64,000 nucleotides of DNA, taken from Cymodocea nodosa. Its lineage: Eukaryota; Streptophyta; Magnoliopsida; Alismatales; Cymodoceaceae. Within the stretch, counting starts at the first letter, position 1; each line of letters starts with the position of its first letter. Of this stretch, positions 33,231-64,000 are shown piece after piece. Made by a program: the position numbers and the translations under genes. The DNA lies in contig CM072342.1 of assembly GCA_036874045.1 (NCBI GenBank), positions 9,387,501 to 9,451,500 on the forward strand. Direction: 5' to 3'. The notes under the pieces were generated by a model. That model did no database searches. It was not told the DNA's origin and worked only from the letters and a program-made list of their open reading frames with translations.

Positions 33231-33237
33231 GAAAACT

Positions 33238-38202: not shown

Positions 38203-38387
38203 TTCTTGATTTTGTATAACACAAACAAAAATTTAGCAGAGACAAAAATTAACATAACTACTACACACCCTCGTGGAGTTAGGGCATAACTCAATGAACT
38301 AAGCTCGTTGAGTTAAGGACTAACTCTACGATACTATTAACTATAAATAAACATATATATATAGATAGTTACTTCAGTTATACAACT
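38203..38387 (-). promoter_or_regulatory. Motif cluster upstream of F-box (G1)
   Basis: Non-coding spacer with TCGTGGAGTTAGG, TAACTCAATGAACTAAGCTC, GTTGAGTTAAGG and TAACTCTACG in 38271-38330 and a TATATATATA run near 38353-38363 (reverse). G2 has the same cluster at 54800-54860. Confidence 0.5.
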
Positions 38388-40670: not shown

Positions 40671-42942
40671 TTAGCCTCTATCCCTAAGTTCATCTACTTC
40701 CTTTTGGAGTTTCTCTAATTGTTGCTCTAATTGATTAATTCTTTCTACAACTCCTGTAATGCCTCTAGAAGGTACAGCAATCTCTGCAGCTACAAAATTT
40801 TTGTACTCTTTCACTAAAATGGTTCTTGATTTGATCTTTTTTTATGCCCATTTAGTGAAATCGATACAATCCACCATTAGCAGTGGAATCAAATCTCCAT
40901 AAAAAAATTTCTTCTTTACTATTCTCAACTTGGAGATAAAAACTACAGACCAATTTATTTGAATTCTATTTACAACTACAAACATAGCCATTTGACAAAT
41001 TGACTCAATTCTATGTCATGGCCTTGTCGTTGATAGACATTCTTAATTAAAATGTTGGCTATCATGTGTGCTTTACCATTTAAATGCTTTAGTCTATTTA
41101 ATAAAGGCACACCAAGATTTATAGCTAAACTGTCCTTGATTTCCTATTCTGTCCATTCAATGGCAGTTGTACTTTCCAAAATTTCTTATCCTTCATTTTT
41201 TAACACAAAAATGTTGTGGAGAAGCTCAAGTGTTATCTATACATCCGCTTCCTCCACGTTGGAAATTAATCCTCCTTCTCCTTCTCTTAAGTTTGCATAA
41301 AAGTAGGGCACTAGATTCTCATATACTGCACGCCCTCTTTCTTGAGAAATAAAATTCAGTAGACCTTGGAATTCAAATAATTCTTTGATTTCTTGCATTC
41401 CGTCCCAATTTACTGGTCTACTATATATAATATCATAACCCCTAATTTCTTGGTATTTATGATATACTTCCTGACTCTAAAAATGTACTTCATTCAAAAC
41501 TATTGCTTTAGTCAAGTTAGGAATGTGACTTTGTTGTTCAAGAGGGGTTTGCTCTTGATCTACTTCTTCCATATGTTGACTTTGAACATGTTCTGCAGAT
41601 TCTTGAATTTTTGCTTCTGCTTTTGTCTATGATGGAGAGTCGGTAGAACTCTCCACTCTATCTTGAATTCTTTCCATTAATTGCTGAAGAGTTTCTTGCT
41701 CTTTAGTGGAATCTACAAAGTCATTTTTGTCCAAATGGCTTCGTTCAGCTTCTTCTTCATTTTCTATTCTTTCTTCTTCCTCCTGACTACCAATCTGCTC
41801 TGTCACTGTTCTTTCTGATTCTATGGCAGATTGGGATGGAGTCACAGGCAATTCAATTTCTACCCTAATTTTTGTTTCTTCTTCTTGTACAAGCTGTAGA
41901 CTAATTTCAGCCTGTTTTTCTTCTTCTCTTTGCTCTTGAATTCCAACCTGATTTTCTTCTTCTCTTCACTCTTACTACTATTGCTCCTACTCCTCCTCAG
42001 AATCGGATAGCAAGTTTATAAAAATTGGCTCCACAGGCCCTATTGATATTGGTACTTTAGATTTAATCTCCTTTTAACACTCAGGCACTATCTCTTTTCC
42101 TTTCCTTCGTGTGATTAATTGTGCCTGGTCTTCCTCTTCTTCTTCTAAGATTAAATCTAAAAACAAAGGCTTTGCACACCTTTGAGCCACAGGTACTGGC
42201 TCTTCCTGTTTAATTTTTTCAATAATTGCTGGTCTCGAAGGACCAGCTTCAGCTTCTTTTGGAGCAAATCTGACAGCAGTTCTAGCAGTAGCTTCTTGAT
42301 GCTGTTCCACTTTATTTTTATATTGGGCTTGCAATTTCTCTGCAGCCCACTTTTTGCATAGTGCATCAAACACTAGATGTGCTTTTGCTACTGCTAAATC
42401 TTCTAATTCTACTTGGTTTCTTCCAACTTGAACCAATCCTTGAAATTCTTTTAATTCTTCTTCAATCGAAGGCCCCAAATTTCTGCTCGTGTCAACGGCT
42501 TAAATGGTGGAACTAAAGGTCCTAGCTATTGTTCCTTAGGAACAAGTCTTTCAACAGTCGGCTCCTCCTGTTCTTCCTCTACTTGTTGCTGCCACCTTAT
42601 TGCACCCCTTGCACGACCAACAATGCACTTTTTGAACCATAATCTAGCTTTATGCTGGATTAGTTCTAGGGCTACTTCATTGTTTGGCCTTATTTTTCTT
42701 TCTTTACTTAAAGCAATTTTTGTCGCTACTTTTATTTTTGTTTCTACTATTTGGGGTATTTGTATACCCAAATCAACCAAAAATTTCCTCAAGTTGAAAA
42801 GTTCTGATTCTACCTTCTGTAGTGCTTTTTCTCTTGTCCTGTTCCGAATCTTCTATCGCGTGCGCCAATCCTCTGACTCTTTCAGAAACTGTGTTGTGTC
42901 CACTGCATCTTCCCAGAACTCAGGTGTCATCTTCCTCATCAT
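40671..42942 (-). pseudogene. ORF X of gypsy G1 (broken)
   Basis: Minus strand from ATG 42942 (MMRKMTPEFWEDAVDTTQFL) to TAA at 40671. An N-terminal helical basic part, an acidic glutamate-rich middle (QEEEERIENEEEAERSHLDK) and a degraded C-terminal conserved domain match G2 ORF X and, in the C-terminal domain, the third ORF of copia A and B. In-frame TAG after RTR near 42865 and after VPKEQ at 42526 are at the same codons as in G2. Other stops are private. Confidence 0.78.
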
Positions 42943-43167: not shown

Positions 43168-45009
43168 TGTTTAGAATGAAAAAGTGCATATTATTAACGG
43201 TTAAATGATGGTTAATTACATAATATTTAGCTTATCATATGAGAATTAAGCCATTATGTTATAATTGCACTGTTATATGCTTTAATTGAAGAATTTGCTT
43301 AATTTTGGGGAATTAATGTTAATTTAGTACATTTATGAACTGTCGGTAAATTGTAGGCTGTAAAATTCTTAAGTATTTGAAAATGCATTTGAGCATCGGA
43401 TAGTTATACTTGTAACTCTCTAGAATGTTGTTTTATGTTTAAACTACTGCTGACGCGTGTTGAGAGCTGGTAGATTTACTTACGTTATAACTCGTTAAGT
43501 TAGTATAACTGCATGCATTGAGTTACATGAAAATACATTAAGGCAACACGTTATAAACTTAAGTTGTTATTTTTGCACGTGTTTTATAGTTAATTCAACG
43601 AAGGAAGTCTGTTGAGTTATCTGTAACTCCACAGACTATATATTTTTTAATATGCCACTATAGCGGTTGCAGGAACAGATAGTTGGAAGGAAAAACCACG
43701 TTTGCACGTATCACGCAGGAATTCAATCGCGCATGGAGAAGGAAGCATCGCTGTTGATCTGAAGGAAGGAAATCCAACCGACCATTCAAGCAGAAGCAGT
43801 TACCACTGAAGAAATATAAAAGAAAAGAAGAAAAAAAAGAAAGAGTGTGATCGATGGACGGCCAGTGTATACAGAGGAGGAGCACCGAGCTTTCTACGGA
43901 TAGTATCGGCGATTCTCTGAAGTATCACACCAACCATCGTATCACCACCTTAATCACCAATCATCGGAGGTCTGTGAGGATACTTGCCTGATGTCGGGTC
44001 GATTCCGAGCCAAACACAGTGCCTGACAACCACTGTGAGGAGTGATCGCATCGCGGGAAGGGAAGACATTTTCACCAAGCGCCGACTCATATTTCAGGAC
44101 ATCATAAAGCTTTTAGCCTTGGCTTCAGGTTGATGCCTATATGCTGAAGAGGAGATCATCTTGCAATTCTAGACTCGCGATTCTATAGGGAGAGGAGATA
44201 GAATTGTAAGTGGTTCAATTTTCAGTGGTGTAATCATGTTGCAAGTAGTGTCGGAAGTATTTACTGTCAAGTGAAATTACTTTACATTTCACCTTTCGCC
44301 CATCACATCAAAACAAAAATACCAAAAACAATTTATCTTTGTTTGTATGTTGTATTTAAGTGTTGTATTGTTGGTGTTGTATCGTGATTAATGTTATTTG
44401 TATCAATTTTATGATTATTTTATGTTAGTTTTAATTTTACAGTTTACTGAAATTGGTTCGTACAAAACAACTTAAAGATTTTAATGGTTACTATTTGAAT
44501 CATCTGAATGTTAGTATTGCATAATGATAAATCCAATGTTAACTAGCATTAAAAAGCTTAATTGATGTTATTTACAATCTGTGGAATCGCCCAATGGTTG
44601 GCCGAATTCCTCTGTAATTAGCAGTATTATAAAGAAGAGACAGGCTCGTGGAGTTAACTTAAGTCCATGAGGATAGTTCGTTGAGTTATCAATAACTAAA
44701 CGAACTTAGTCTGTTGAGTTAACTGTAACTCAACGGAGTGCTTATTGAATATAAATTTGAATTGTTCACAATCAAACATTTCTTAAATTCGTCAACAATT
44801 CCCTATGGGATCGACCTGTACTTGCACACTGATACAATAGACACTGTGCACTTGCAGTTAAAGTACAAATTGGAATTAATATCTAAATTGTATTAAAGGT
44901 TGTTTGTTTACTTCTAAAAGAAAGAATTGGCATAAAGATAAATTAACTAAGTAAAAATAGAAGTAACAAATCCAAGTTTTTCTAGTGTAGTGCTGGGAAA
45001 ACACGAACA
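43168..45009 (+). repeat. 5' LTR of G2
   Basis: TGTTTAGAATG...ACACGAACA. A motif cluster ending TAACTCCACAGAC at 43580-43635 is followed at once by a TATA box TATATATTTT near 43638. A second cluster lies at 44641-44745 near the 3' end, with a conserved GGGATCGACCTGTACTTGC stretch. Confidence 0.92.
43580..43650 (+). promoter_or_regulatory. LTR promoter region of G2
   Basis: TTAATTCAACGAAGG, TCTGTTGAGTTATCTG, TAACTCCACAG, then TATATATTTT. The 3' LTR has the same arrangement at 58270-58330. Confidence 0.6.
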
Positions 45010-45016
45010 AGTTTTA

Positions 45017-45034
45017 TGGCGCCGTTGCTGGGGA
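45017..45034 (+). other. Primer binding site of G2
   Basis: TGGCGCCGTTGCTGGGGA, seven bases after the LTR. This resembles the tRNA-Asp-type site I recall for Athila/Tat elements. Confidence 0.8.
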
Positions 45035-45077
45035 ATTGAATTGAACTGAATTGAACTAAATTGAACTGAATTGAATA
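45033..45077 (+). repeat. 10-bp tandem repeat after the primer site
   Basis: GAATTGAACT-type units, about four copies, including variants GAATTGAATT and AAATTGAACT. Confidence 0.75.
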
Positions 45078-45148
45078 GATATAAGCAACTGTTAGAGCTG
45101 TTTCATTTTAATAGTCAGAGTTGTGTGTTTTCTTCTGTAATTGAGAAT

Positions 45149-46102
45149 ATGGCATATACTTATGCTCAAAGATTTATGAAACCTTTAATTAGCATATGTG
45201 AATTCTGTAATTCTGAAGGACTCGACATTTCTGATTGTTTGAAATTGGGACATTTACAGATTGATAGATCTCATGAACAACAAATGAATTATCCTCAATA
45301 TAATAGAGCCGATTATGAGAATCCTATAGTTTACCCAACTGATGGTCAGTATAGAATGTGTAATATGATGAGAGGCACTGAAGTTTGGGATAGCTATGAC
45401 AAACTAGAGCATAGTATAGAGCAAAATCTAGACAAACTGGAATACTTTGTGTGTCAACAACAAGAAGTCAACCAATTAAACTATAAGGAGGCATATTCAG
45501 AACCTAAACAAGATATAATTTACGAAACTGAAAAAGCCATAAAGAAAATTGATCAAAAATTGAATGTAATGAAATTAGATGATCTAGAAACAAAATTAAA
45601 ATCATTAGATAAAAATGCAATGAAAATACAAGTTTTACAACAGGACAATGAAAATTATAATGTTATAAACCTGCACAACTTGCAAAATATACAACAAACA
45701 GAAAACACAAATGTAAGAGAATTTAAAGAATGCACTTTAAAACTAAAAACAATTGAAGATCATAATCACGAAAATGATATACAAAAACATCATGAAAGTA
45801 ACGAAAATCTGGAAGATGTATGTGTAACATTAAGATCTGAAACTGATATACCACCAAGAACTCAAAATGAAAATGAAAATGTAATAGCTGAAAATCTAGA
45901 AATCACTCAAGAACAATCTGAATCTGCAATTGAAGCTAAAAATTATCAAACAAATCAACTGAAAGAAAAAGAGTCTTTGAAATCAAAATCTTTAGCACCC
46001 TCTCCTGAAAGATTACAACAAACAATTCCTGAAAAACCAGAAAAAATAAGAGAAATTTTTGAAAAAGTACAAGTTAACATTCCTTTGTTAGATCTATTGT
46101 AG
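45149..46102 (+). pseudogene. Gag C-terminal linker with zinc-finger-like motif, G2
   Basis: First ATG in the open stretch is 45149 (MAYTYAQRFMKPLISICEF). CEFCNSEGLDISDC looks like the short zinc finger that in Athila/Tat gag follows the capsid. A long charged linker includes VTLRSETDIPPR, matching the VTLRSG motif that in relatives links gag to protease. The capsid itself is absent here and lies at 53387. The frame ends in TAG at 46100, the same codon as in G1 (63506-63508), and continues in frame into protease. Confidence 0.72.
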
Positions 46103-46993
46103 AATATGCCACCTTGTGCTAAATTTCTGAAGGATTGCTGTACTAAGAAAAGAGAGCGAAAAGTTCTTAGAAAGGTCTTTTTAGCTGAGCAAAGTAGTTA
46201 CCTATTTCTGCCACAAATTCCTAAAAGGTTATCTGATCCTGGAATCCCTGTTATATCATGCACCATAGGAAATACCATTCTAGAAAGAACCTTAATAGAC
46301 TTAGGTGCAGGTATAAATGTTATGCCAAGTGATATATTTCAATCCTTAGGATTAGAAGGCTTAACTCCTACTAGTACGGTTATTCAATTGGCTGATAGAA
46401 GTATAAGATACCTTAGAGGAAAAATAGAGGATGTCTTAATTAAAATCAAGAATTTTATATATCCTATTGATATTGTAATTATGGATTCCCAACAAATTAA
46501 GCATAAAAATAGTGATACATCTTTAATTTTGGGAAGGCCATTTTTAGCAACATCAGGGGCTGTTATAAATTGTAAAACTGGAGTAATGAAGTTAGCATAT
46601 GGTAATGAGGATACTCAATTAAATATTTTCAAACCAAAAAGGTTTGAGGAGTTAGAAATGTCCTTACATACCATAGACTTTTTAGAGGATGAAGGAGATA
46701 TGTTAGATGATGTGATTCAAGAAGAATTAAATAGGCAAATCAATTTTGAAACTTTAGAAGAAAGTGAAAGCATAAATATAGAAGGAGATCAGGAAGAAAT
46801 TAATTTAAAAAAAGATGATGTTCAATTAGGAGCTCTAGCTTCTGATGGGCAGCATTTAGAATTAAAACATTTACCTCCTGAATTAACTTATATATTTTTG
46901 GAAGATAAACGGACCTGTCCAATCATTATTGCTTCAGATTTGAAAGAAGATCAAATAGCTAAATTAAAAGAGGTAATAAAAAGTTATAAATAA
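46103..46993 (+). pseudogene. pol: Gypsy protease of G2
   Basis: Open after the TAG: NMPPCAKFLKDCCTKKRERK, then the aspartic protease core LIDLGAGINVMPSDIFQSLG with catalytic DLGA, and the flap/C-terminal GRPFLATSGAVIN. The acidic tail leads toward RT and ends in TAA at 46991, where G1 has a sense codon (SYKEVIGWT). Confidence 0.88.
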
Positions 46994-48472
46994 GCAATAG
47001 GATGGACTATGACTGATATAAAAGGGTTAAGTTCAACTTTATACTGTCACCACATATATTTAGAAGAGAATGCTAAACCTGTTAGAATTCCTGAGAGGAG
47101 ATTAAATCCAAACCTTAAGGAAGTAGTCAAGAAGGAAATAGTTAAATGGTTAGATAATGATATAATATATCTGATTTTTGATAGCTTGTGGGTTAGTCCA
47201 ATCCATGTAGTTCCTAAGAAATCAGGATTAATAGTTATTAGGAATGAAAGTCAAGACTTGATACCTACTAGAATTCAATCAGGCTGGAGAGTATGTATAG
47301 ATTATAGAAAGCTGAATGCTATGACTAGGAAAGATCATTTTCCCTTACCTTTTATAGATCAAATGCTGGAAAGATTAGTAGGGCAATAATATTTTTGTTT
47401 CCTAGATGGGTATTCAGGGTATAATCAAATTCTAGTAGCATTAGAGGATCAAGAGAAAACAACTTTCACCTGTCCTAATGGAACTTATGCTTTTAAAAGA
47501 ATGCCATTCGAATTATGCAATGCACCAGCTACCTTTCAAAGGTGTGTGCAGGGCATATTTACTAGAATGACTAATGAATTTTTAGAAATATTTATGGATG
47601 ATTTTACTGTATATGGCAACTCATATGAAGTGTGTTTAAGCAATTTAGACCAAATATTAAAACGATGTGTGGAAAAAAATCTGGTTTTAAATTGGGAAAA
47701 ATGTCACTTCATGGTTAAACAAGGAATAGTCTTAGGGCATGTTGTTTCTAAAAAAGCATTGGAAGTAGATAAAGCTAAAATAGGAGTAATTTCTAATCTA
47801 CCAGAACCTAAATTAGTAAAAGATATTAGATCATTTCTAGGACATGTTGGTTTTTATAGAAGATTTATTAAAGACTTTAGCAAGATAGCTAGACCTTTAA
47901 CTAATCTATTAAAAGATGTTCCATTTAACTTTGATAAAAATTGCAAGGAAGCATTTTTTAGACTTAAGACTAGCTTAATTTCAACTCCTATAATTCAAGC
48001 ACCTAATTGGAACCATCCATTTGAATTAATGTGCGATGCTTCTGATTTTGCTGTAGGAGTAGTGTTAGGACAGAAAATAGAAAAATCTCCTAGAGTGATT
48101 CATTATGCAAGCAAAACCTTAAATGATGCTCAAGTTAATTACACAACTATTGAAAAAGAATTATTAGCTGTTGTGTTTGCTTTAGAAAAGTTTAGATCAT
48201 ATTTAATTGAAGCTAAAGTAATAGTATACACGGATCATTCAGCTCTAAAACATCTATTAAAGAAAAAAGAAACTAAACCTAGATTGATCCGATGGATATT
48301 ATTATTGCAAGATTTCGATCTAGAAATTAAAGATAAAAAAGGTTGTGAGAATGTAGTAGCAGATCATTTATCAAGATTACAAATAGAAAAATCAAATATT
48401 GAAATTAAGGATAATTTTCCTGATGAACAATTAATGACCATCAACACAATACCTTGGTATGTAGACAGTTAA
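46994..48472 (+). pseudogene. pol: Gypsy RT and RNase H of G2
   Basis: RT starts WTMTDIKGLSSTLYCHHIYL and continues [47 protein letters not shown] and the active site FMDDF. The connection [21 protein letters not shown] leads to RNase H with [25 protein letters not shown] and [10 protein letters not shown], all catalytic residues present. TAA at 47387 replaces a glutamate codon. A 2-base deletion near 48468 shifts the frame before integrase. Confidence 0.92.
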
Positions 48473-49754
48473 TTACTTAGTTACTGGTTTAACACCTAAG
48501 GATTGGAATAGACAGAATAAGAAATTGTTTTTCTCAAGAGTAAAATATTACTGTTGGGAAGACCCTTACTTATTTAAGAAATGTCCTGATCTGGTTTTAA
48601 GGAGGTGTGTTCCAGAAACTGAATATTCGAGCATATTGTCTTTCTGTCATGACCAAGCTTGTAGAGGACATTTTGGTTCAGGGAAAACTACTGCAAAAAT
48701 TCTGCAATGTGGGTTTTATTGGCCAACACTATTCAAAGATGCTCATAAATATTGCTTAAGTTGTTTAAGATGTCAACAAATAGGAAGAATATCAAAGAGG
48801 AATATGATGCCTCTTAATCCTATTGTTGAGGTTGAAATCTTTGATGTGTGGGGAATAGATTTTATGGGTCCATTTCCTATGTCTAATCAATTTAATTACA
48901 TATTGTTGGGAGTGGATTATGTATCTAAATGGATAGAAGCTATTCCTACAAAAACTAACGATAACAAAGTGATAATACAATTTATAAGAACAAATATATT
49001 TGCCAGATTTGGAATACCTAAAGCTATTATCAGTGATAGAGGAACTCATTTCTGTAATAGAAGTTTTGAAGCCTTAATGAAGAAATATGAAGTAAACCAC
49101 AAAATTGCAACATCATATCATCTGCAAACAAGTGGACAAGTAGAAAGTGCAAACAAACAAATTAAATTAATCTTGGAAAAAGTAGTAAATCCTACTAGAA
49201 CAGATTGGACTAATAGATTAATAGATGCACTTTGGGCTTATAGAACTGCTTATAAAACGAGCTTAGGTATGTCACCTTTTTGGCTAGTATATGGAAAAAG
49301 TTGTCATTTACTTGTTGAAATAGAACATAAAGCTTATTGGGCATTAAAAACTCTGAACACTAATTTAAATCAAGCTACTGAAAATAGGAAAATGCAACTA
49401 ATTGAATTAGAAGAATTTAGAAATGAAGTTTATTCAAAGACTGTAAGAGAAAAAGAGAAAATTAAATTCTGGCATGATAGAAAAATTATTCCTAAAAACT
49501 TTGAAATAGGACAAAAAGTATATCTTTATATGGCTAGACTCCATAACCATCCAGGAAAATTAAGATCTAGATGGGCAAGACCTTACATAGTTCAAAATGT
49601 TTATCCTTATGGAGCTATTGAAATTGAAAATCCTAAAAATCAAAATATATTTAAAGTAAATGGACAAAGACTTAAACCTATTCTGAAAACACCAAAAAGC
49701 TCCTTTGAAATTATAGAAGAAATCAAAGTAGAGGACTACTCAAGTTTTACTTAG
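48473..49754 (+). pseudogene. pol: Gypsy integrase of G2
   Basis: Open 48525-49754 (409 residues). The zinc-binding region is [11 protein letters not shown] ... YCLSCLRC. The core has the triad: D in [11 protein letters not shown] in [10 protein letters not shown] and E in [10 protein letters not shown]. The C-terminal part [20 protein letters not shown] resembles the integrase tail of the lineage. It would be expressed only if the upstream frameshift and stops were bypassed. Confidence 0.92.
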
Positions 49755-50280: not shown

Positions 50281-52498
50281 ATGATGAAGATGACGCTTGA
50301 ATTTTGGGAAGATGTTGTTGATACATCAGAATTTCTGAAGGAATCAGAAGAGTGGCACACGCGGTAGAAGATCAGAAATACGACAAGAGAGAAAGAGCTA
50401 CAGAAGGTAGAATCAGAACTTTTCAAGTTGAGAAGAGATTTAGTAGATATGGATATACGAATACCTCAAATGATGGAAACACGAATCAGAGTGGCAATTG
50501 AAATTGCAGTAAGTAAAGAAAGACAAATAAGGCCAAGTAACGAAGTTGCCCTAGAATTAATCAAGCGTAAGTCCCGACTCTGGTTCAAAAGACGAATCTA
50601 TAAACAAGCTAAACGGGTGATCTAGGAGCAAGAAATGAAAGCAAATGAAGAGGCAACTGAAGAACGGGAGGAACCAACTGCTGAAAGACCTGTTCCTGAG
50701 GAGCAGTAGTCTGGACCTTCAGTTCCACCTTTTAAGCCATTGGCATGAGCAGAAATGATGGGGCCTTCGATTGAAGAAGAAATAAGAGAATTTGCAAAAC
50801 TGGTTCAAGTTGGGAAGAACCAAGGAGAATCAGAAGATTTGGCAGTGGCTAAAGCACACTTGGTGTTTGATGCACTGTACAAAAAGAGGGCTGCAGAAAA
50901 GTTGAAAGCCCAATATAAAATCAAGGTAGAACAGCATCACGCAGCTACTACCAGAACTGTTGCCAAACCTATTGTAAAAGGAGATGAAGCTGGTCCTTCG
51001 AGACCAGTAATTATAGGAAAAGTTAAACAGGAAGAGCTAGTACCTGTGGCTCAAAGGCCTACAGAGCCTACTTTTGTAGATTTAATTTTAGAAGATGAAG
51101 AGGAAGAACAGGCACAACTAATCAGAAAAAAGGAAGGAAAAGAAAAAGTGCCTGAATATGAGGAAATTAAATCTGAAGTACTAATTTTTACAGGGCCTGT
51201 GGAGTAGATTTTTATTAACCTGCTATCCGATTCTGAGGAGGAGCAGGAGGAGCAAAGAAAAGAAGAAAATCAGGTTGAAATTAGTCTGCAGCCTATACAA
51301 GAAGAAACAGAAATTAGGGCAAAAACTGAATTGCCCGTAACTCCATCCCAATCTGTTACAGAATCAGAAAGAATAGTAACAGAACAGATTGGTAGTCAGG
51401 AGGAAGAAGAAAATGAAGAGGCTGAAAGAAACCATTTAGACAAAAATAATTTCATAGATTCCACTGAAGAGCAAGAAACTCTTCAACAAATTATGGAAAG
51501 AATTCAAGACAGAGTGGAGAGTTCTGTCGACTCACCACCACAGATAGAAGCAAAAGCAAAAATTCAGGATTCTGAAGAGAATGTCCAAATGCAGCTTATG
51601 CTAGAGGAAGAGCAAGAGCAAACTCCTCTAGAGCAACAAAGTCACCTTCCTGACCCGACTGAAACAACAATTTTGAATGAAATACATTTTTGTAGTTAGG
51701 AAGCTTATATCAAATACCAAAAAATAAGGGGTTACGATATTATTTACAATAAACCAGTAAATTGAGATGGAATGCAAGAAATCAAAGATCTATTTGAATT
51801 CCAAGGTCTACTGCAATTTATATCTCAAGATAGAGGGCATGCAGTATATGAAAATTTAGTGCCCTGTTTCTATGCAAATTTAAGAGAAGGAGAAGGAGAA
51901 TTAATTTCAAACGTGGAGGAAGCTGATGTATAGATAACACCAGAGCTTCTCCACAACATATTTGGTTTAAAGAATGAAGGAACAAAAATTTTGGAGGATA
52001 CAACTGCAGTTGAATGGACTGAGCAGCAAATTAAGGATTGTTTAGCTATCAATTTTAGTGTGCCATTATTAAACAGATTGAAGCATTTAAATGGTAAAGC
52101 ACACATGGTAGCTAACATTCTGATTAAGAATGTCTATCAACGACAGGGCCATGACAGAATTAAGTCAATTTTTCAAATGGGCCACGTATGCAGTTGTAAA
52201 TAAGATCCAAATAAATTGGTCTACAGTTTTTATCTCCAAGCTGAAAACAGTAAAGAAGAAATTATTTTATGGAGATTTGATTCCACAGTTGATGGTGGAT
52301 AGTATTGATTTCACTAGATGGACACCAAAAAGGATTAGATCAAGAACCATTTCAGTGACAGAATACAGAAATTTTGTAGTTGCAGAACTAGCAGTACCTT
52401 CTAGAGGAATTACAGGAGCTGTAGAGAGGATTAATCAATTAGAACTTCAATTAGAAAAACTCCAGAAGGAAGTAGATGAACTTAGGCATAGAGATTAA
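50281..52498 (+). pseudogene. ORF X of gypsy G2 (broken)
   Basis: From ATG 50281 (MMKMTLEFWEDVVDTSEFLK) to TAA 52498. The N-terminal part is helical and basic, the middle very acidic. The C-terminal domain about 51770-52400 (EIKDLFEFQGLLQFI, TPELLHNIFGLKNEG, NKIQINWSTVF, KLFYGDLIPQL) is followed by a coiled tail LEKLQKEVDELRHRD. The C-terminal domain is plainly homologous to ORF X of copia A and B. TAG after HTR and after VPEEQ are shared with G1. Others (TGA after KPLA, TAG after GPVE, TAG after HFCS, TGA after KPVN, TAG after EADV) and a frameshift near 52190 are private. Related to the putative plant transposon protein domain; function unknown. Confidence 0.8.
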
Positions 52499-53386
52499 AT
52501 TGTATTGTTCGTCTACTTGTGTAAAATTGTATGATGTACTTGTATTGTAATTGATTCATATTAATGAATGTAAATTTTTCAGATGCAATTTTCATACGTG
52601 TTTTGAATGTGAAATGAATGGAAATTATTGAATATTATGTTATTGTGAAACTTTATGAATGAATATGTAACAGATTTACAATTTGCTGAATGACAAGATA
52701 ACTGCTTAAAAATTTCTACATGTTATAAGGTAAAATGTAAATTTTGCATAATATAAAATGACCTGCAATTTAAATCTTTATATAATGTTCAGATTTAAAT
52801 GTATTTTAATCAAAATGTGGCATTAATGACAAAGATTTAACTTTATTACAGTTAGCAGAATGACAAAAAAAAAAAAAAATAGAATAGAAAACTTACAAGA
52901 GTGAAACTTAGAAGTTGCTAAGTGTTAACTCAACGAAGTAAGTCCGTTGAGTTATCTGTAACTCAACAAAGTTAGTCCCTAGAGTTAGCAACAGTAACCA
53001 ACTGTGTTCTGTTGAGTAATCTGTAACTCAACGAGGTTAGTTCGTGGATTAAGCAGAACGGTTATTCTTTTAACCACAAACGAAACTTCGTCGGTTTAGT
53101 AGTTACCAAAATTTGAAATTAGTAGTGGTACACGTACCCATTAAAACAGGAACCACGATGCACGTTGCAAGACACGTTCTTGCAACGAGATTTATTCACT
53201 TTATGGATGCGCAGTATATATATGAAATAGAATGTTATTTACGAGTTACCAGCACTTTTAAGAGAAAGGAGAAAGCGTTGGAGGAACTAGAAGGAGAAGC
53301 AGCTGATTCAACCTTCATCCGACAACAAATATTTATAGAATGGAAAGCTTCAGACTGGTATGTAATTAATCTTCTGTTATTTATTT
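52499..53386 (+). promoter_or_regulatory. Spacer and putative promoter of gag (G2)
   Basis: AT-rich to 52915. A cluster follows (52925-53045: TAACTCAACGAAGTAAGTCC, GTTGAGTTATCTG, TAACTCAACAAAG, TAACTCAACGAGG). Then a perfect hairpin 53163-53187 (CGTTGCAAGA, loop CACGT, TCTTGCAACG), TATATATATG at 53215-53224, and the gag ATG at 53387. The open frame from TTG 53113 has no ATG in a sensible place and is probably not coding. Confidence 0.6.
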
Positions 53387-54730
53387 ATGAGCACATGGAC
53401 TCGTTCTCTGAGCACTAAACGATTTGTAAGAACACCTATCCAGGAATTTTCATTGCAGAGGGGTACTGAAAAATTTTTTGAACTAAACTTTAACGAAATT
53501 CTTTGGGGTGTAGCTAACCTTTCTTTAAAAGAGAACGTAGAGATGGCTGCTCCAGTAGAAAAACCATTAGGAGAGATTCTGTATCCTGAATTAATTGATG
53601 AACCTTCATGTATTCGATTGCCAAACTTTGAGGGAGATAGGTTTGAACTGAAATCTAATTATATTAGTCAATTGCCACATTTTCATGGATTAGAAAGAGA
53701 GGATGCCTATTATTTCCTTAGAGAATTTAACGAAGTTTGTCAAATGATGAGAATGCCGAACATGAGTATAGATGCTATTAAACTTAGATATATCCCTTTT
53801 GCTTTAAAAGATACAGCTAAGAGATGGTTATATACTCTGTCGCCTGATTCAATTTCTACATGGACTGAATTTTGCTCTGTTTTTCTGGAAAAATACTATC
53901 CAACACATCAAATGATTAAAAAGAAGAAAGAAATATTAATGTCTAGCCAAAAACAGGGTGAATCATTTTGGAAATATTTTGAAAGATTTAAAGATTTACT
54001 GACTCAATGTCCACATCATGCAATGAGTAAAGCACAATTAATAGGCATAATTTATGAAGGCATAGATGTTTCAACGAAATCTTTATTAGAATCTACTTGT
54101 CAAAATGGATTTTTAAAATTATGTAGTGAAGAAGCATGGGCATATTTAGAAAATTTTGCAAAAAGAACTGCACAGTGGGAAAATTCGGTTGAACCTATTG
54201 TAGATAAAAGATTATTGCCAAGAGGAATGCATGAAATAGATTCCAATACTATGCTTGAGGTGAAATTAAATGAATTAACAAAGAAAATAGAAGAGTTATC
54301 ATTAAATCAAAAGCTAGCAGAAAAGAATACAAACATAAATGACTTAGATATTATTTATGCTAGAAACCAAAGAGATAACTTGGGAAATTCTTATAATCCT
54401 AATTGGAGAAATCACCCGAATTTATCTTGGAGAAACAACAATTTCCAGGGAGGAGAAAATATAAATGAGAAGAACATAAGTTATGAAGTATTAATTGAAC
54501 AAGGAGCTAGAATAGAGAAATTAGAAAAGATAATCCAACAAGTAAACAATCGTCTAGAATTTATATTTGGAAATGCTGTAAATCAAAATCAGAATAGAAA
54601 TATACCACTTAAACAGAAGGAACCAATGGAAGTTAGACCTACTGGAGGATTGCCAATACAAGCTATACCTAATTCTATAAATAGAATGGTTAATGAAATT
54701 GATACCTCTTCTAGGAGGGCAGCTGAATGA
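53387..54730 (+). CDS. gag: Gypsy gag capsid protein of G2, relocated downstream of pol
   Basis: Intact 447-residue frame from ATG (MSTWTRSLSTKR) to TGA. Residues about 85-245 form the retrotransposon gag capsid domain: LKSNYISQLPHFHGLEREDA, YFLREFNEVC, LRYIPFALKDTAKRWLYTL, WTEFCSVFLEKYYP, ESFWKYFERFKDLLTQCPHH. Near residue 340 is YNPNWRNHPNLSW, also part of Athila/Tat gag. A coiled segment (IEKLEKIIQQVNNRLEF) is near the end. It is the best-preserved gene of the element. In known gypsy elements gag precedes protease; here it follows integrase and ORF X in both copies, which would need its own transcript or a subgenomic one. Confidence 0.9.
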   Translation: MSTWTRSLSTKRFVRTPIQEFSLQRGTEKFFELNFNEILWGVANLSLKENVEMAAPVEKPLGEILYPELIDEPSCIRLPNFEGDRFELKSNYISQLPHFHGLEREDAYYFLREFNEVCQMMRMPNMSIDAIKLRYIPFALKDTAKRWLYTLSPDSISTWTEFCSVFLEKYYPTHQMIKKKKEILMSSQKQGESFWKYFERFKDLLTQCPHHAMSKAQLIGIIYEGIDVSTKSLLESTCQNGFLKLCSEEAWAYLENFAKRTAQWENSVEPIVDKRLLPRGMHEIDSNTMLEVKLNELTKKIEELSLNQKLAEKNTNINDLDIIYARNQRDNLGNSYNPNWRNHPNLSWRNNNFQGGENINEKNISYEVLIEQGARIEKLEKIIQQVNNRLEFIFGNAVNQNQNRNIPLKQKEPMEVRPTGGLPIQAIPNSINRMVNEIDTSSRRAAE

Positions 54731-54925
54731 AGCAGCATATCTAAAGCAACTATTTGTATGTATATATGTTTTTATTTTTATTTTAAGTTAATAGTATCAT
54801 AGAGTTAATTTTTAACTCAACGAACTTAGTCCATTGAGTTATGCCTTAACTCCACGAGGGTGTGCAGTAGTTATGTTAATTTTTGTCTCTGCTAAATTTT
54901 TGTTTTTATTTTACAAAATCGATAA
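54731..54925 (+). promoter_or_regulatory. Motif cluster between gag and F-box (G2)
   Basis: GTATGTATATATG (54758-54770), then TAACTCAACGAACTTAGTCC, ATTGAGTTATGCC and TAACTCCACGAGGG (54812-54860), then a T-rich leader to ATG 54926. The matching G1 spacer is 38203-38387. Confidence 0.5.
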
Positions 54926-56064
54926 ATGGAATTAATGTAATTACCGTTGGATGCACAAAGGGAAATACTAAGTAACTTGTCAACTAAAGATCTATGCAGG
55001 ATGTGTTGTGTATCAAATGAAATTAAAGACTGTATTGAAGAAAAATATTTTCAGGGACTACAAGCTGCAAAAATGACTAAGATTAGAGATGGATTTATAT
55101 AGAGGTCATTTAATCGTAGTTCAAATACCCATGAATATCTGGCTATGGAAGAAACTATTAGAACTCCACCCAATGCATTGAAGGAATGAGTCATATTATG
55201 GGGATAGATGAAGGATTAATCATATACAAGACGAGACCAATGCATGCAAGTTTATCATTACCTGAGATTTTGATAAGAAATCCTATAACATGAGAAGAAT
55301 GTAATATAGGAAGACTTAATATATTTGAAGCACCAACTGAAAATTGTGGGTCAGCTTTAATATTTTCTAATAAAAATTCTGCAATTCCTGAAAAATTATA
55401 TTATTGGAGACCTACAGGAAATTGGGGTGAAGATTTACGCTTAAGTGTGTATAATTTTCTGAATAGATCTTGGAATGAAAACATTATAATATATCTAGGA
55501 CAGAAATCATTAATTAACCAAACACATGTCATACTTGATGGTTATATTTATTTAGTCACGGAGATATCAATAGCATATAGATCTGATTTATACATAGTGA
55601 GCATAGATAGTTATGATGATTATATAGAAATTTTACCTATACTGAGTGAAATAGCTAAACCACCATTTGAAAAATTTAATAAAATTCAAATAGGAATGTG
55701 GTATAATGAAGAAGATGATCCTACTTTATGTCTGATAAGATGGTGAGATGAACTGATGAAATTTCAAATATGGATTATGGAAGACATGAATGAATGGAAG
55801 TGGGAAGAGGAATATATTGAAATAGATGTAGAAATAGAAACTGCTACATTACCCTGGAACCAAAAAGGATCCCTTTCTGCATTACATATCATTAATGATA
55901 ATACACTCGTATTTGGAATTTATAATATATTGCATGTTTACAAATTAAAAAGGACCAAGAATTGCATTAAAACAGAATTAATAGCAAGAAGAACTATGCC
56001 TAAAAAGTTTGCTTGGACTGATACATTTATTCCATTTGTTTCTACTTTTCAATCATGTTCTTAA
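54926..56064 (+). pseudogene. Captured F-box gene of G2 (broken)
   Basis: Aligns with the G1 F-box gene from ATG 54926, but codon 5 is TAA. A TAG (after GFI), a 1-base indel near 55187, a TGA in RNPIT-E, and a TGA at 55744 (W codon in G1) break it. The C-terminal part keeps the sense codons lost in G1 and runs to TAA 56064 (WNQKGSLSALHIIND ... WTDTFIPFVSTF), showing the ancestral protein was about 377 residues. Confidence 0.82.
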
Positions 56065-56522: not shown

Positions 56523-57828
56523 TAATTAAAGTAACAGCCATGTAAGTTTGTTAATTAAAGGAATTAAAATGGTACTACAAAGTTTTGAGGAAATTGAAAA
56601 TTTTGATGAACTTGCTGTAACTATCCAATAATTGAGACTATAAAATTTTTATAAACTGCTTGAATATTATATTTAGAAGGCTATAGAAGATGCTATAGAA
56701 TTTATTATTTATGTAAATCTAGATATAGTATCTTATGATTTTTCTGAATTTCATGAGTTTAACAGTTTCACGATTTTAAAATGAAATCAGAATATTTAAT
56801 GCTTAATCAGAAAATTATCTGAAGTCCTAAAAGAGCTAAGATGTGAATTCTAGATTAAATGAAACACATATGATGAAAGATACATTTACTTTGACTAATT
56901 GAACTTGTAGAATGATTTTTGTGTAGATCTTATTAAACTATAGATAAAGTATGAACTTATTGTTATGGATTCATATCTTTAGTAAATGATAGAAGTAGGA
57001 TTATATGAAATTGGTGTTTTACTGCATCTGTATTAATGAAATACGTGCATATATAGTATGTGATTAATGCTTTGTTTTGTGTGTGCATTTATTTTTAGAA
57101 AAAAAGAAAAAGAAAAAATAAATAAATAAACCTTGAGAGTTTATTGACTTATTTGATCATGAGCCTTTTGTACTTGAGTAGATAGGTATGTAAGGATTGT
57201 TGACCTGAAAAAGGACTCTGAAAATCTAGCAACCTAAGATCTTGATCAGATTTGAGATTGTTGACTGAAAGCTCGTTACATGGGTACATTAGAAAGCTCT
57301 TGTATGATTCAAGCTTGTCAAATTAACTTCTAAAGTACACAAAAAAAAAAAGAAACATATACTGTTCTGAAAAGATACAAGTGTTTTGTCAAATACAGAT
57401 ATCTTATGAATCGAGTATATTTTCTGTTATCTAAAATTGCTGAAATATGAATCTGGAATTGACTTTTGAAGTTGTTTAATAGAAATACAATTCTTTATTC
57501 TACTTGTCTTAATCAGATTGAATTGGATTGTACTTTAATTTGTATGTTGTTGAAATTTCTTCTAGAAAAACTTATTGGAAAATTCAGGATTACAGATGAT
57601 GAAAAGAAGAACAAACGATAATATAATTAACACCTATATGAAGATGATATACTTTGTATGTAATTTACATATATTCTAAATATCTTTGCAGGTTGATTAT
57701 AGAAACATACAGAATATATGTTTATGCTAAACAGAAAAAAAAAAAAACAAAAGGGGAAGAATTAATTCTAGCACTTTTGAAAGACCAATTAATTAGATCT
57801 TAGTTTGCTAAGGGACTAGCAAAATTTA
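56523..57828 (+). other. Conserved non-coding block of G2
   Basis: No ORF. Shared with G1 throughout and with copia A and B. The core 57132-57318 contains GAGAGTTTATTGA, TTTTGTACTTGAG, AGGTATGTAAGGATTGTTG, AACCTAAG, GAAAGCTCGTTACATGGGTA and TTGTATGATTCAAGCTT in the copia order. Confidence 0.82.
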
Positions 57829-57841
57829 GGTATGGGGGAAG
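57829..57841 (+). other. Terminal polypurine tract of G2
   Basis: GGTATGGGGGAAG directly before TGTTTAGAATG. Confidence 0.85.
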
Positions 57842-59692
57842 TGTTTAGAATGAAAAAGTGCATATTATTAACAGTTAAATGATGGTTAATTGCATAATAT
57901 TTAGCTTATCATATGAGAATTAAGCCATTATGTTATAATTGCACTGTTATATGCTTTAATTGAAGAATCTGCTTAATTTTGGGGAATTAATGTTAATTTA
58001 GTACATTTATGAACTGTCGTTAAATTGCAGGTTGTGAAATTCTTAAGTATCTGAAAATGCATCTAAGCATTGGATAGTTATACCTGTAACTCTCCGGAAT
58101 GTTATTTTATGTTTAAACTGCTGTTGACACGTGTTGAGAGCTAGTAGATTTACTTACGTTAAACTCGTTAAGTTAGTATAACTGCACGCGTTGAGTTACA
58201 TGAAAATACACTAAGGCAACGTGTTAGGTTAGTGTTATAAACTTAAGTTGTTATTTTTGCACGTGTTTTATAGTTAATTCAACGAATAAAGTCTGTTGAG
58301 TTATCTGTAACTCCACAAACTATATATTTTCTAATATGCAACTGTAGCGGTTGCAGGAACAGATAGTTGGAAGGAAAAACCATGTTTGCATGTATCACGC
58401 AGGAACTCAATCGTGCTTGGAGAAGGAAGCATCCCCGTTGATCTAAAGGAAGGAAATCCAACCGACCATTCAAGCAGAAGCAATTACCATTGAAGAAATA
58501 TAAAAGAAAAGAAGAAAAAAAGAAAGAGTATGATCGATGGACGGCCAATGTATACAAAGGAGGAGCACCGAGCTTTCTGTAGAAAGTATCGGCGATTCTC
58601 CGAAGTATCACACCAACCATCGTATCACCACCTTAATCACCAATCATCGAAGGTCTGTGAGGATACTTGCCTGATGTCGGGTCAATTCCGAGCCAAACAC
58701 AATGCCTGACAACCACTGTGAGGAGTGATCGCGTCGCGGGAAGGGAAGACATTTTCACCAAGCGCCAACTCATATTTCAGGAGATCGTAAAGCTTTTAGC
58801 CTTGGCTTCGGGTTGATGCCTGTATGCTGAAGAGGAGATCATCTTGCAATTCTAGACTCGCGATTCTATAGGGAGAGGAGACAGAATTGTAAGTGGTTCA
58901 ATTTTTAGTGGTGTAATCGCGTTGCAAGTAGTGTCGGAAGTATTTACTATCAAGTGAAATTACTTTACATTTCACCTTTCGCCCATCACATCAAAACAAA
59001 AATACCAAAAACAATTTATCTTTGTTTGTATGTTGTATTTGAGTTTTGTATTATTGGTGTTGTATCATGATTAATGATATCTGTATCAATTTTATGATTG
59101 TTTTATGTTAGTTTTAATTTTATAGTTTACTAAAATTGGTTCGTACAAAACAACTTAAAAATTTTAATGGTTACTGTTTGAATCATCTGAATGTTAGTAT
59201 TACATAATGATAAATCCAATGTTAACTAGCATTAAAAAGCTTAATTGATGTTATTTACAATCTGTGGAATCGCCCAATGGTTGGCCGAATCCCTCTATAA
59301 TTAGCAGTATTATAAAGAAGTGACAGGCTCATGGAGTTAACTTAAGTCCACGAGGATAGTCCATTGAGTTATCAATAACTAAACGAACTTAGTCCGTTGA
59401 GTTAACTGTAACTCAATGGAGTGCTTATTGAATATAAATTTGAATTGTTCACAATCAAACATTTCTTAAATTCGTCAGCAATTCCCTGTGGGATCGACCT
59501 GTACTTGCACACTGATACAATAGACATTGTGCACTTGCAGTTAAAGTACAAATTGGAATTAATATCTAAATTGTATTAAAGGTTGTTTGTTTACTTCTAA
59601 AAGAAAGAATCGGCATAAAGATAAATTAACTAAGTAAAAATAGAAGTAACAAATACAAGTTTTTCTAGTGTAGTATTGGGAAAACACGAACA
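57842..59692 (+). repeat. 3' LTR of G2
   Basis: 1,851 bp, matches 43168-45009 with scattered transitions and ends ACACGAACA. The following ACTAACTC is G1 integrase-ORF X spacer (compare GAGTTAGTCAACGAGC at 50051). Confidence 0.92.
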
Positions 59693-60038
59693 ACTAACTC
59701 AAGACTTAATGGAGTAAGCTCATTGAGTTAAGCGTAACTGAACAGACTTCCCATACAAACAGATATAATAAATAAAATAAAATAAAATAAAAATACTTAA
59801 GATAATAGTTTTTCTGTTTTTTACCGGTTTAACTGATACTATGTTTCAGTCAGACCTATTTTTTTACCGATTGAATCGATACTATGTTTCAGTAAAACCA
59901 ATTTTTTTTTTTTACTAAAAATTAATATAGATATTTTTATGTTCCGGTCATACCGATGGATCCAATTGGTTAAAACGTAATGATTTTTATATTTTATAAT
60001 TTTTTTTTTATAAAAATAAAAGAAAAACTGATTTCTTA
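59693..60038 (-). other. G1 spacer after integrase
   Basis: Part of the integrase-ORF X spacer of G1, the rest being 42943-43167. It has an AAAAT run at 59768-59793 and a 43-46 bp duplication at 59821-59909 (units start TTACCGG and TTACCGA, both with GATACTATGTTTCAGT). No gene. Confidence 0.7.
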
Positions 60039-61140
60039 CTAAGTAAAGCTCGTGTAGTCCTCTACTCTAACTTCTTCTATAATTCCAAAGGAGCTTTTTG
60101 GTATTTTCAAAATAGGTCTAAGTCTTTGTCCATTTACTTTAAATATATTCTGATTTTTAGGATTTTCAATCTCAATAGCTCCTCCATAAGGATAAATATT
60201 TCGAAATATGTAAGGTCCTGCCCATCTAGATCTTAATTTTCCTAGATGGTTATGGAGTCTAGCCATATAAAGATAACTTCTTGTCCTATTTTAAAGCTTT
60301 TTGGAATAATTTTCCTATCATGCCAGAATTTCATTTTCACTTTTTCTCTTACAGTCTTCGAATAAGCTTCATTTCTAAATTCTTCTAGTTCAATTAATTA
60401 CATTTTCCTATTTTCAGAAGCTTGATTTAAATTAGTGTTCAGAGTTTTTAATGTCCAATAAGCTTTATGTTCTATTTTAACTAGTAAATGACAACTTTTT
60501 CCATATACTAGCCTAAAAGGTGACATACCTAAGTTTGTCTTATAAGCAGTTCTATAAGTCCAAAGTGCATGTATCAATCTATTAGTCCAATGTGTTCTAG
60601 TAGGATTTACTACTTTTTCTAAGATTAACTTAATTTGTTTGTTTGCACTTTCTACTTGTCCACTTGTTTGCGGATGATATGATGTTGCAATTTTGTGGTT
60701 TACTCCATATTTCTTCATTAAGGCTTCAAAACTTCTATTACAGAAATGAGTTCCTCTATCATTGATAATAGCTTTAGGTATTCCAAATCTGGCAAATATA
60801 TTGGTTCTTTTAAATTGTATTACCACTTTGTTGTCATTAGTTTTTGTAGAAATAGCTTCTATCCATTTAGATACATAGTCCACCCCCAACAATATGTAAT
60901 TAAATTGATTAGACATAAGAAATGGACCCATAAAATCTATTCCCCACACATCAAAGATTTCAACCTCAACAATAAGATTAAGCGGCATCATATTCCTCTT
61001 TGATATTCTTCCTATTTGTTGACATCTTAAACAACTTAAGCAATATTTATGAGCATCTTTGAATAGTGTTGGCCAATAAAATCCACATTGCAGAATTTTA
61101 CAGTAGTTATCCCTGAACCAAAATGCCCTCCATAAGCTTG
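60039..61140 (-). pseudogene. pol: Gypsy integrase of G1
   Basis: Minus-strand pieces 60991-60398 and 60266-60039. The catalytic triad is kept: D in [10 protein letters not shown] in [11 protein letters not shown] in [10 protein letters not shown]. The tail [20 protein letters not shown] ends at TAA 60039. Frameshifts near 61140 and 60300-60400 break it. Confidence 0.9.
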
Positions 61141-62663
61141 GTCATGACAAAAAGACTATGCTCGGATACTCAGTTTCTGTAACACACCTCCTTAAAACCA
61201 AATCAGGACATTTCTTAAATAAGTATGAGTCTTCCCAATAGTAATATTTTACTCTTGAGAAAAACAATTTCTTATCTTGTCTATTCCAATCCTTAGGTGT
61301 TAAACCAATAACTAAGTAATTAACTATGTCTGCATACCAAGGTATTGTGTTGATGGTCATTAATTGTTCATCAGGAAAATTATCCTTAATTTCAATATTT
61401 GATTTTTCTATTTGTAATCTTGATAAATGATCTACTACTACATTCTCACAACCTTTTTTATCTTTAATTTCTAGTTCAAATTCTTGTAATAATAATATCC
61501 ATCGGATCAATCTAGGCTTAGTGTCTTTTTTTTTTATTAGATGTTTTAAAGTTGAATGATCCATGTATACTATTATTTTAGCTCCAATCAGATATGATCT
61601 AAACTTTTCTATGGCAAACACAATAGCTAATAGTTCCTTTTCAGTAGTTGTGTAATTACCTTGAGCATCATTTAAGGTTTTGCTTACATAATGAATCACT
61701 CTAGGAGATTTTTCTATCTTCTGTCCCAACACTAGCTATTTTGCTAAAGTCTTTAATAAATCTTCTATAAAAACCAGTATGTCCTAGAAATGACCTAATA
61801 TCTTTTACTGATTTAGGTTCTGGTAGATTAGAAATTACTTCTATTTTAGCTTTATCTACTTCCAACCCTTTCTTAGAAACATGCCCTAAGACTATTCCTT
61901 GTTTAACCATGAAGTGACATTTTTCCCAATTTAAAACCAGATTTTTTTCCACACAGCGTTTTAATATTAGGTCTAAATTTTTTAAACAAACTTCATATGA
62001 GTTTCCATATACAGTAAAATCATCTATAAATATTTCTAAAAAATCTTTAGTCATTCTAGTAAATATGTCGTGCATACACCTTTGAAAGGTGGCTAGTGCA
62101 TTGCATAATCCGAATAGCATTCTCTTAAAAGTATAAGTTCCATTAGGATAGGTGAAAGTTGTTTTCTCTTGATCCTCTAATGCTACTGGAATTTGATTAT
62201 AACCTGAATACCCATCTAGGAAACAAAAATATTCTTGCCCTACTAATCTTTCTAGCATTTGATCTATAAAAAGTAAGGGAAAATGATCTTTCCTAATCAC
62301 AGCATTCAGCTTTCTATAGTCTATACATACTCTCCAGCCTGATTGAATTCTAGTAGGTATCAACTCTTGACTTTCATTCCTAATAACTGTTAATCCTGAT
62401 TTCTTGGGAACTACATGGATTGGACTAATCCACGAGCTATCAAAAATCGGATGATCTAACCATTTCACTATTTCCTTCCTGACTACTTCTTTAAGGTTTG
62501 GATTTAATCTCTTCTTAGGAATTCTAACAGGTTTAGCATTCTCTTCTAAATATATGTGGTGACAACATAAAGTTGAACTTAACCCTTTTATATCAGTCAT
62601 AGTCCATCCTATTACTTCTTTATAACTTTTCACTATATCTATTAATTTAGCTATTTGATCCAC
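61141..62663 (-). pseudogene. pol: Gypsy RT and RNase H of G1
   Basis: RT is open 62663-61701 with WRVCIDYRKLNAVI, CNALATFQRC and the active site FIDDF. Directly after [13 protein letters not shown] the sequence jumps to [15 protein letters not shown]. About 55-60 codons present in G2, including the first RNase H aspartate (CDASDF), are deleted. The rest of RNase H and the start of integrase run 61732-61142. Confidence 0.9.
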
Positions 62664-63505
62664 TTTTAAATCTGAAGTAGTAATGATTGGACAGGTTCGT
62701 TTCTCTTCCAGAAATATATAGGTTAATTCAGGAGGTAAAGGTTTTAATTCTAAATGTTGCCCATTGAAGCTAGAGCTCCTAATTGAACATTATCATTTTC
62801 TAAATTAACTTCTTCCAGATCTCCTTCTATATTTATGCTTTCACTTTTCTCTAAAGTTTCAGAATTGATTTGCCTATTTAATTCTTCTTGAATCACATCA
62901 TCTAACATATCTCCTTCATCCTCTAAAAAGTCTTTGGTATATAAGGACATTTCTAACTCTTCAAACCTTTCTGGTTTGAAAATATTTAATTGAATATCTT
63001 CATTGCCATATAATAACTTCATTACTCTAGTTTTACAATTTATAACCGCCCTTGATGTTGCTAAAAATGGCCTTCCCAAAATTAAAAATGTATCACTATT
63101 TTTATGCTTAATTTGTTGGAAATCCAAAATTACAATATCAATAGGATATATAAACTTTTTGATTTTAATTAAAACATCCTCTATTTTTCCTCTAGGGTAT
63201 CTTATACTTCTATCAGCTAATTGAATAACCGTACTAGTGGGAGTTAAGCCTTCTAATCCTAAGGATGCAAATATATCACTTGGCATAACATTTATACCTG
63301 CACCTAAGTCTATTAAGGTTCTTTCTAGAATGGTATTTCCTATGGTGCATGATATAACTGGGATTCCGGGATTAGATAATTTTCTAGGAATTTGTGGCAG
63401 AAATAGGGAACTACTTTGCTCAGCTAAAAAGACCTTCCTAAGAATTTTTCGCTCTCTTTTCTTAGTACACCAATCCTTTAGAAATTTAGCACAAGGTGGT
63501 ATTTT
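62664..63505 (-). pseudogene. pol: Gypsy protease of G1
   Basis: Minus strand. PPCAKFLKDWCTKKRER follows the shared TAG, then the core LIDLGAGINVMPSDIFASLG and GRPFLATSRAVIN. Open 63286-62750, with a frameshift near 62755 (LGALAS...GQHLELK). Confidence 0.87.
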
Positions 63506-64000
63506 CTACAATAGATCTAATAAAGGAATGTTAACTTGTACTTTTTCAAAAATTTCTCTAATTTTTTCTTGTTTTTCAAGTATTGTTTGTTGTAATCTTT
63601 CAGGATAGGGTGCTAAAGATTGTGATTTAAAAAATTCTTTTTCTTTCGTTTGATTTGTTTGATCATTTTTAGCTTCATTAAAAGATTCAGATTGTTCTTC
63701 AGTGATTTCTAGATTTTCAGCTATTACATTTTCATTATCATTTTGATTTTTACTCTTATCCACCTTCATATTATTTTCATTTTGAGTTCTTGGTGGTATA
63801 TCAGTTCCAGATCTTAATGTTACACATACATCTTCCAGATTTTCGTTACTCTCATGATGTTTTTGTATATCATTTTCGTGATTATGATCTTCAATTGTTT
63901 TTAGTTTTAAAGTGCATTCTTTAAATTCTCTTGCATTAATATTTTCTTTTTGCTGTATATTTTGCAAATTATGCACATCTATAACATTATAATTTTCATT
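63506..64000 (-). pseudogene. Gag C-terminal linker of G1 (partial, runs off window)
   Basis: Matches 45680-46102 of G2: HNLQNIQQKENINAREF, CVTLRSGTDIPPR (the intact VTLRSG motif), LLDLL and the TAG at 63506-63508, shared with G2. It has a short insertion (MKVDKSKNQND) missing from G2. The start and the zinc-finger part are outside the window. Confidence 0.75.

Follow-up and report, generated by a model that had tools for sequence, protein, structure and literature searches.

Ty3/gypsy-type elements with gag behind integrase in three families of the Cymodocea nodosa genome

The stretch of DNA analysed here (the window, 64,000 nucleotides of Cymodocea nodosa contig CM072342.1) contains two related LTR elements, G2 on the plus strand and G1 on the minus strand. 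Comparison of the window with itself showed that G2 lies inside G1, which is interrupted at 43164/59694, and the location of one within the other implies two separate insertions. The 5' LTR of G2 (43168-45009, plus strand) is 94.5% identical to 57839-59693, and its 3' LTR (57842-59692, plus strand) is preceded by a purine-rich tract; the TG..CA ends were assigned via the 5' LTR of G1, whose alignment begins at TG. G2 is flanked by a degenerate target duplication, with ACAAG at its left end and ACTAA at its right, and the interrupted region in G2's own copy, turned to the plus strand, reads GACTAACTC. A primer binding site of the tRNA-Asp type at 45017-45034 (plus strand) agrees at 17 of 18 positions with the complement of plant tRNA-Asp.

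The coding region of G2, all of it on the plus strand, is enclosed by these two LTRs, and its pol has the order protease, reverse transcriptase, RNase H, integrase. The pol frame starts at 45149-46102 with a CCHC-like knuckle, CEFCNSEGLDISDC, and a VTLRS linker, as the preliminary description of the locus had held, and no capsid was found there. Protease (46103-46993; Asp_protease_2, E=2e-4, a match that falls short of the curated cut-off) is followed by a stop-interrupted reverse transcriptase and RNase H (46994-48472) and by integrase (48465-49754; rve 9e-14, Integrase_H2C2 5e-13). The segment 47390-48472 matched RVT_1 (1e-20) and RT_RNaseH (3e-36), and 46994-47389 was assigned to the start of reverse transcriptase by reading its translation. 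Behind integrase come ORF X in three pieces (50749-52498), gag (53387-54730) and an F-box ORF (54896-55854) that is broken by stops and frame changes and matches the G1 F-box ORF at 75-80% by tblastn. The gag ORF spans 53366-54730, with an ATG at 53387 and 447 codons; it matches PF03732 (Retrotrans_gag) at 1.8e-19, contains YNPNWRNHPNLSW and then a coil, and its N-terminus, MSTWTRSLSTKR, aligns with the N-termini of Gags P0001 and P0002. Integrase stop and gag ATG are 3.6 kb apart, with ORF X between them. The pol pieces 45065-46993 and 47390-49754 gave no capsid family match, and from 46103 on they matched protease, reverse transcriptase/RNase H and integrase, leaving the separate ORF downstream of integrase and ORF X as the sole capsid found in G2. 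The Retrotrans_gag match confirmed that this ORF encodes the capsid, as had been proposed; gag is an intact ORF, and as a small correction to the preliminary description the pol and F-box frames of G2 are interrupted by stops.

The same order, integrase, ORF X, gag and F-box, was found on the minus strand in G1. Its pol (60042-64000, with integrase at 61324-60042) runs on past the window, and is followed by ORF X (40677-42478), gag with one frame change (38388-39729), an open F-box ORF of 319 codons (37273-38232; F-box 1.6e-9) and a 3' LTR that is truncated in the window self-comparison (33213-35268). The gag matches cover 39651-38391 in two frames, the outer ends being those of the preliminary description, and bear out its placing of the G1 gag after ORF X. 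In the next 10 kb of the same contig beyond the window (L009), G1 goes on through its leader and into its 5' LTR; this part aligns to G2 from position 2482 back to position 4, apart from an interruption of about 340 bp. A gag query against this true 5' end of G1 gave chance matches only (E 2.0 and 3.4).

Four capsid queries were run on the stretch from 5' LTR to protease in G2, one further copy of the same family (family A), five copies of a second family (family B) and the G1 leader. A capsid upstream of protease was not found in these eight elements; there were 12 matches at E<=10, the best at E=0.059 over the zinc knuckle, the next at 0.19 and the others at 2.9 or worse. A hidden 5' capsid was rejected, since neither L009 nor the eight leader searches gave a capsid match; the G1 flank beyond 64000, to which the preliminary description had pointed as the place to look, turned out to be leader and 5' LTR, with no capsid found there or in the other seven elements. 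Gag upstream of protease, by which Ty3/gypsy (Metaviridae-type) elements are recognized, is not the arrangement found in these elements, and we therefore file them as a variant of this group, not as a standard member.

The two window copies represent very few of the candidate gag matches in the 374.6-Mb host genome, which number in the thousands. A Pfam gag search returned 4640 candidates, 150 of which were scored and listed, and a search with family A gag returned 7805, of which 99 were scored. Three families with the pol-gag order were recognized: the G-like family A, family B, whose gag is 41-46% identical to that of A, and family C, at about 37%, with gags sharing only about 31-46% identity between families. 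In the first set returned by the gag search, the integrase end was upstream of gag on the same strand at all eight loci. For a second set, 20 loci were taken from the 150 listed, each with 5-kb flanks; one of them (L011) duplicates L001 of the first eight. Here integrase was upstream of gag at 16 loci and reversed at none. Four loci (L017, L020, L025, L027) had no match to protease, reverse transcriptase or integrase in either 5-kb flank, and at none of the 20 did such a match lie downstream of gag on its own strand. L014 has a pol-start match 4.2 kb past gag, which lies beyond B-type LTR sequence and was taken as a neighbouring element. Twelve of these loci belonged to family A, seven to family B and one was gag only (L027). 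Gag of the family A loci was 89-96% identical to G2 in its main pieces, and at least one ORF X piece was present in 8 of the 12. At the seven family B loci neither ORF X nor the F-box was matched within the stretch examined, and the pol-gag order thus also occurs in families without a match to either.

Pairing of matches gave a consistent order in larger samples. For family A, 99 gag and 132 protease matches, among the matches listed, formed 24 same-strand pairs within 25 kb, with protease upstream of gag in 24 and downstream in none, and one opposite-strand pair. With P0007, a canonical-type Gag fused to LRSG, as query, 116 gag match rows were obtained, the leading ones from family C, which is about 33% identical to P0007. 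When these were paired with 150 matches of the family C integrase end, among the matches listed, integrase was upstream for 66 of the 116 rows and downstream within 12 kb for none; two rows had opposite-strand neighbours and 50 had no listed partner, and 48 of the 52 best-scoring rows, which are of the family C type, had an upstream integrase. The distance from integrase match start to gag match start was 937-1011 bp in 65 of the 66 pairs (median 999) and 2496 bp in one, and the spacer after the integrase stop was about 300-400 bp in the B and C copies read. Open frames of 1469-1536 codons hold the integrase end in 16 of the 150 integrase matches, all without internal stops; one further match, in a frame of 1488 codons, has a stop within the match. 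Frames of this length would offer room for pol and a short leader part and would be too short for a full gag-pol. Many copies are dead, as 87 of the 99 listed family A gag matches contain a stop.

Gag ahead of protease was seen at a single place, L041, obtained with the fused Gag-protease query P0017. It consists of a family A gag with the usual 5' flank of a downstream gag (window 53021-53399), about 270 bp unmatched to G2, and a truncated pol that starts in mid-linker. L041/L042 was rejected as a canonical gag-protease arrangement and interpreted as a place where two broken copies were joined secondarily, given the downstream-type flank on its gag. Several other P0017 protease matches start well before LRSG (query 205-288), one of them B028's own, and a canonical relative may be among the rest.

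The family B copies showed that pol and gag belong to one element. LTR pairs, 93-95% identical, enclose both in all five copies, with the 3' LTR cut by the end of the stretch examined in B028 and B029. Of three copies, B030 has TG..CA ends and a perfect 5-bp target duplication, GTTAA, and B016 and B011 gave none. The B pol frames open, in the translations of the five copies, with a CxxC-H-C knuckle and then a VTLRS/G-type linker. Primer sites match the tRNA-Asp complement at 15-18 of 18 positions in all eight elements. Non-autonomous elements of the TR-GAG type carry gag without pol between their LTRs, and this candidate was rejected because pol and gag lie inside one LTR pair in five of five B copies. 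An AT-rich leader of roughly 0.7-1.2 kb separates primer site and pol in family B and ends in acceptor-like TGCAG or TGTAG. Such a site lies about 100 bp before the pol start at L035 (4300-4350), L032 (4750-4770) and L031 (4785-4800), all on the plus strand, and at L034 around 4855-4866 in minus-strand numbering; the leader may contain an intron.

We judge the pol-gag order to be heritable, present in three families of one plant genome, and not the product of a broken copy. A one-off rearrangement, nested insertion or assembly chimera at the window locus would have some precedent, as G2 does sit within G1 and L041 is a junction of broken copies, but the same order recurs in three families and in independent insertions spread over many contigs, LTR pairs surround pol-gag in five of five B copies, and the near-constant integrase-to-gag spacing already refutes a chimera, so that this explanation has next to no probability left. 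The heritability argued in the preliminary description from two copies is now supported by three families, many contigs and the reverse transcriptase clade described below. Derivation from one chimeric locus, which that description had named as a possible refutation, is excluded by the number of contigs and by gags as divergent as those of A, B and C, all of them behind integrase.

Family A elements carry further ORFs. An F-box ORF follows gag at all 12 sampled family A loci, as it does at 37273-38232 (minus strand) and 54896-55854 (plus strand) in the window; an F-box gene carried by a retrotransposon might divert the turnover of host proteins. In ORF X, the last piece (52124-52498) resembles an ORF behind pol of Ty1/copia-like elements in the window (37%, E=1e-13 to 12869-13087). 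Ahead of the 3' LTR, the gypsy-type elements have a stretch (56867-57692, 36258-35444) that shares 70-73% identity with one located behind pol in the copia-like elements (9724-10508, 21638-22266), suggesting exchange between the superfamilies. About 108 bp within the gypsy-type LTR (58158-58265) are 81-84% identical to the copia-like segments 6165-6272, 14257-14364 and 26251-26358, possibly a shared regulatory element.

Alignment with Gags of other plants located the point at which gag was cut. In A, B028 and C the downstream Gag ends 11-21 residues past an LPSQxxPNP-type motif, which reads LPIQAIPNS or LPIQAIPNPV in A, LPSNTIPNPR in B028 and IPSQAITNPR in C, whereas P0008 and P0017 (Daucus carota) run on into LRSG about 20-24 residues further, P0017 then continuing into protease; in G2 the stop likewise falls shortly before the point where relatives run on to LRSG-protease. 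The gene was thus separated just before the Gag-protease linker, and Gag joined to LRSG-protease in one frame, as in Athila-like elements, was not found. The downstream Gag has its own zinc knuckle in B028 and C, and the pattern was not found in A or B016, whose types of Gag seem to have lost it. The division between capsid and zinc finger proposed in the preliminary description is therefore right about the knuckle at the pol start, but it is no simple split, since a knuckle also remains in the downstream Gag of B028 and C. The Gag P0009 (286 residues, from a JGI contig) stops after PNPR and lacks LRSG, a hint that the split may be present in another organism. IMG/VR scans with gag found no relative.

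A reverse transcriptase tree was built from three A copies, four B copies (one X-rich B row was omitted) and 58 homologues, with family C not included. A and B formed one clade with support 97/93, nested among the 58 homologues, of which the named ones are from plants and none is a named Athila/Tat reference. A second RNase H domain (aRH) is a mark of the Tat/Ogre/Retand group. Gag-C motifs occur in the same protein in 25 of the 58 homologous reverse transcriptases, as labelled by regular expression, and 33 are unlabelled. The path between A and B is about 0.77 changes per site, similar to that to the nearest other elements (0.7-0.8), which would make the order old. The families might instead have relocated gag independently: A differs in having ORF X and the F-box, and C is outside the tree. 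Against such convergence, A and B are one clade and in all three families Gag ends at an equivalent position, and we consider it rather improbable.

The downstream gag of family A is under purifying selection, much like the enzymes. Its median pairwise dN/dS was 0.53 (91 pairs, 14 copies), compared with family A medians of 0.46 for integrase (28 pairs) and 0.38 for reverse transcriptase (6 pairs); those of the F-box and the ORF X pieces were 0.59 (90 pairs) and 0.32-0.71. Copies evolve neutrally after insertion, and these medians would therefore understate constraint in the active lineage. This similarity of gag to integrase and reverse transcriptase speaks against the alternative that the gene behind integrase is a surplus or decoy gag, gained like an env-like ORF, with the working Gag supplied in trans by canonical elements. 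Extra ORFs of plant elements do lie most often between pol and the 3' LTR (available text of PMC7264820), and family A has its F-box ORF in that region. Nevertheless, the downstream gag is the only capsid found in the elements examined and is common to A, B and C, and no canonical gag-pol element of this clade that could act as donor was seen among the genome matches listed, which is no proof of absence. Taken together, we regard a decoy gag as very unlikely.

Our preferred reading is that these are, very probably, autonomous-type, Athila-like (OTA) Ty3/gypsy elements in which one ancestral event put gag behind integrase. An ancestor may have duplicated gag to a position behind pol; the 5' copy would then have lost its capsid and kept the knuckle-linker part that now heads pol, while the 3' copy would have lost the linker, the Gags of the A and B016 type later losing the knuckle too. 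This duplication and loss is suggested by the motif positions and by the weak knuckle similarity (E=0.059).

With the sole capsid behind pol, these elements cannot use the standard route to Gag, in which translation begins at the 5' end and now and then reads on into Pol. We propose that Pol is translated from the full-length LTR transcript and that Gag would come from a separate, more abundant mRNA, produced by splicing or from an internal promoter, which would replace the frame linkage that normally sets the Gag:Pol ratio. In family A, where 3.6 kb with other ORFs precede gag, a separate Gag mRNA would be the simplest solution; the short spacers of B and C would also permit reinitiation. Splice acceptors upstream of gag did not exceed those of shuffled sequence (p for the top site 0.05-0.76 across 8 intervals), which, with the 300-400 bp between integrase stop and gag in the B and C copies read, fits the alternative that Gag is made from full-length RNA by reinitiation or at an internal ribosome entry site and not from a separate mRNA. 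The longer, ORF-containing spacer of family A speaks against this, and structural Gag normally exceeds Pol, a ratio that reinitiation after a 1500-codon frame would hardly favour; we hold this alternative to be a serious one, if on balance unlikely.

Gag before pol is the textbook order in LTR retrotransposons and retroviruses and is treated as fixed, because Pol is normally a rarer extension of Gag or linked with it. We lean, with some reserve, towards the broader view that one gag relocation gave rise to a lineage that diversified, has persisted for long, was active until recently and produces Gag from an mRNA of its own; it would be the first LTR-retroelement lineage known to work in reversed order, and would have been missed since element-finding pipelines discard unexpected domain orders. 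A pol-first lineage that diversified would mean that the Gag-Pol linkage can be given up, and would offer a natural system for how the Gag:Pol ratio and Pol packaging are achieved; such lineages may be absent from current databases.

The published descriptions place gag first. A plant reference survey classes Ty3/gypsy by GAG-PROT-RT-RH-INT and removed elements of unexpected order, in the available text of PMC6317226, and the available part of a review of additional ORFs has gag and pol following the 5' LTR (PMC7264820). The motifs placed behind integrase in animal proviruses in the accessible text of PMC4299795 are dUTPase and others, not gag. Among the open-access PMC papers listed, no title or abstract beginning reports pol before gag in LTR retrotransposons. 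Retand, Grande, Bagy-2 and SIRE carry an additional ORF, in some of them in sense orientation, between pol and the 3' LTR; this ORF either resembles env or has no known function, and their gag keeps its place at the front (available text of PMC7264820; for SIRE, PMC6317226), whereas here gag itself is displaced. The elements are close to Athila, Calypso and Diaspora (OTA) in their protease, reverse transcriptase, RNase H, integrase order, their tRNA-Asp-type primer site a few bases past the LTR and their long LTRs, and Athila and Calypso, as here, have an ORF after pol. The fused Gag-LRSG proteins P0017 (Daucus carota), P0012 (Humulus lupulus) and P0008 have a homologous Gag with the same LPSQxxxNPK-type and LRSG motifs, but in these Gag runs straight into LRSG (and in P0017 and P0012 then into protease, in one frame), whereas here it stops before LRSG. 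Diaspora has one gag-pol ORF of 1892 codons with Gag first, and its primer binding site, 5 bp from the LTR, is complementary to tRNA-Asp (available text of PMC1142308), whereas in the elements described here the capsid is a gene of its own after integrase.
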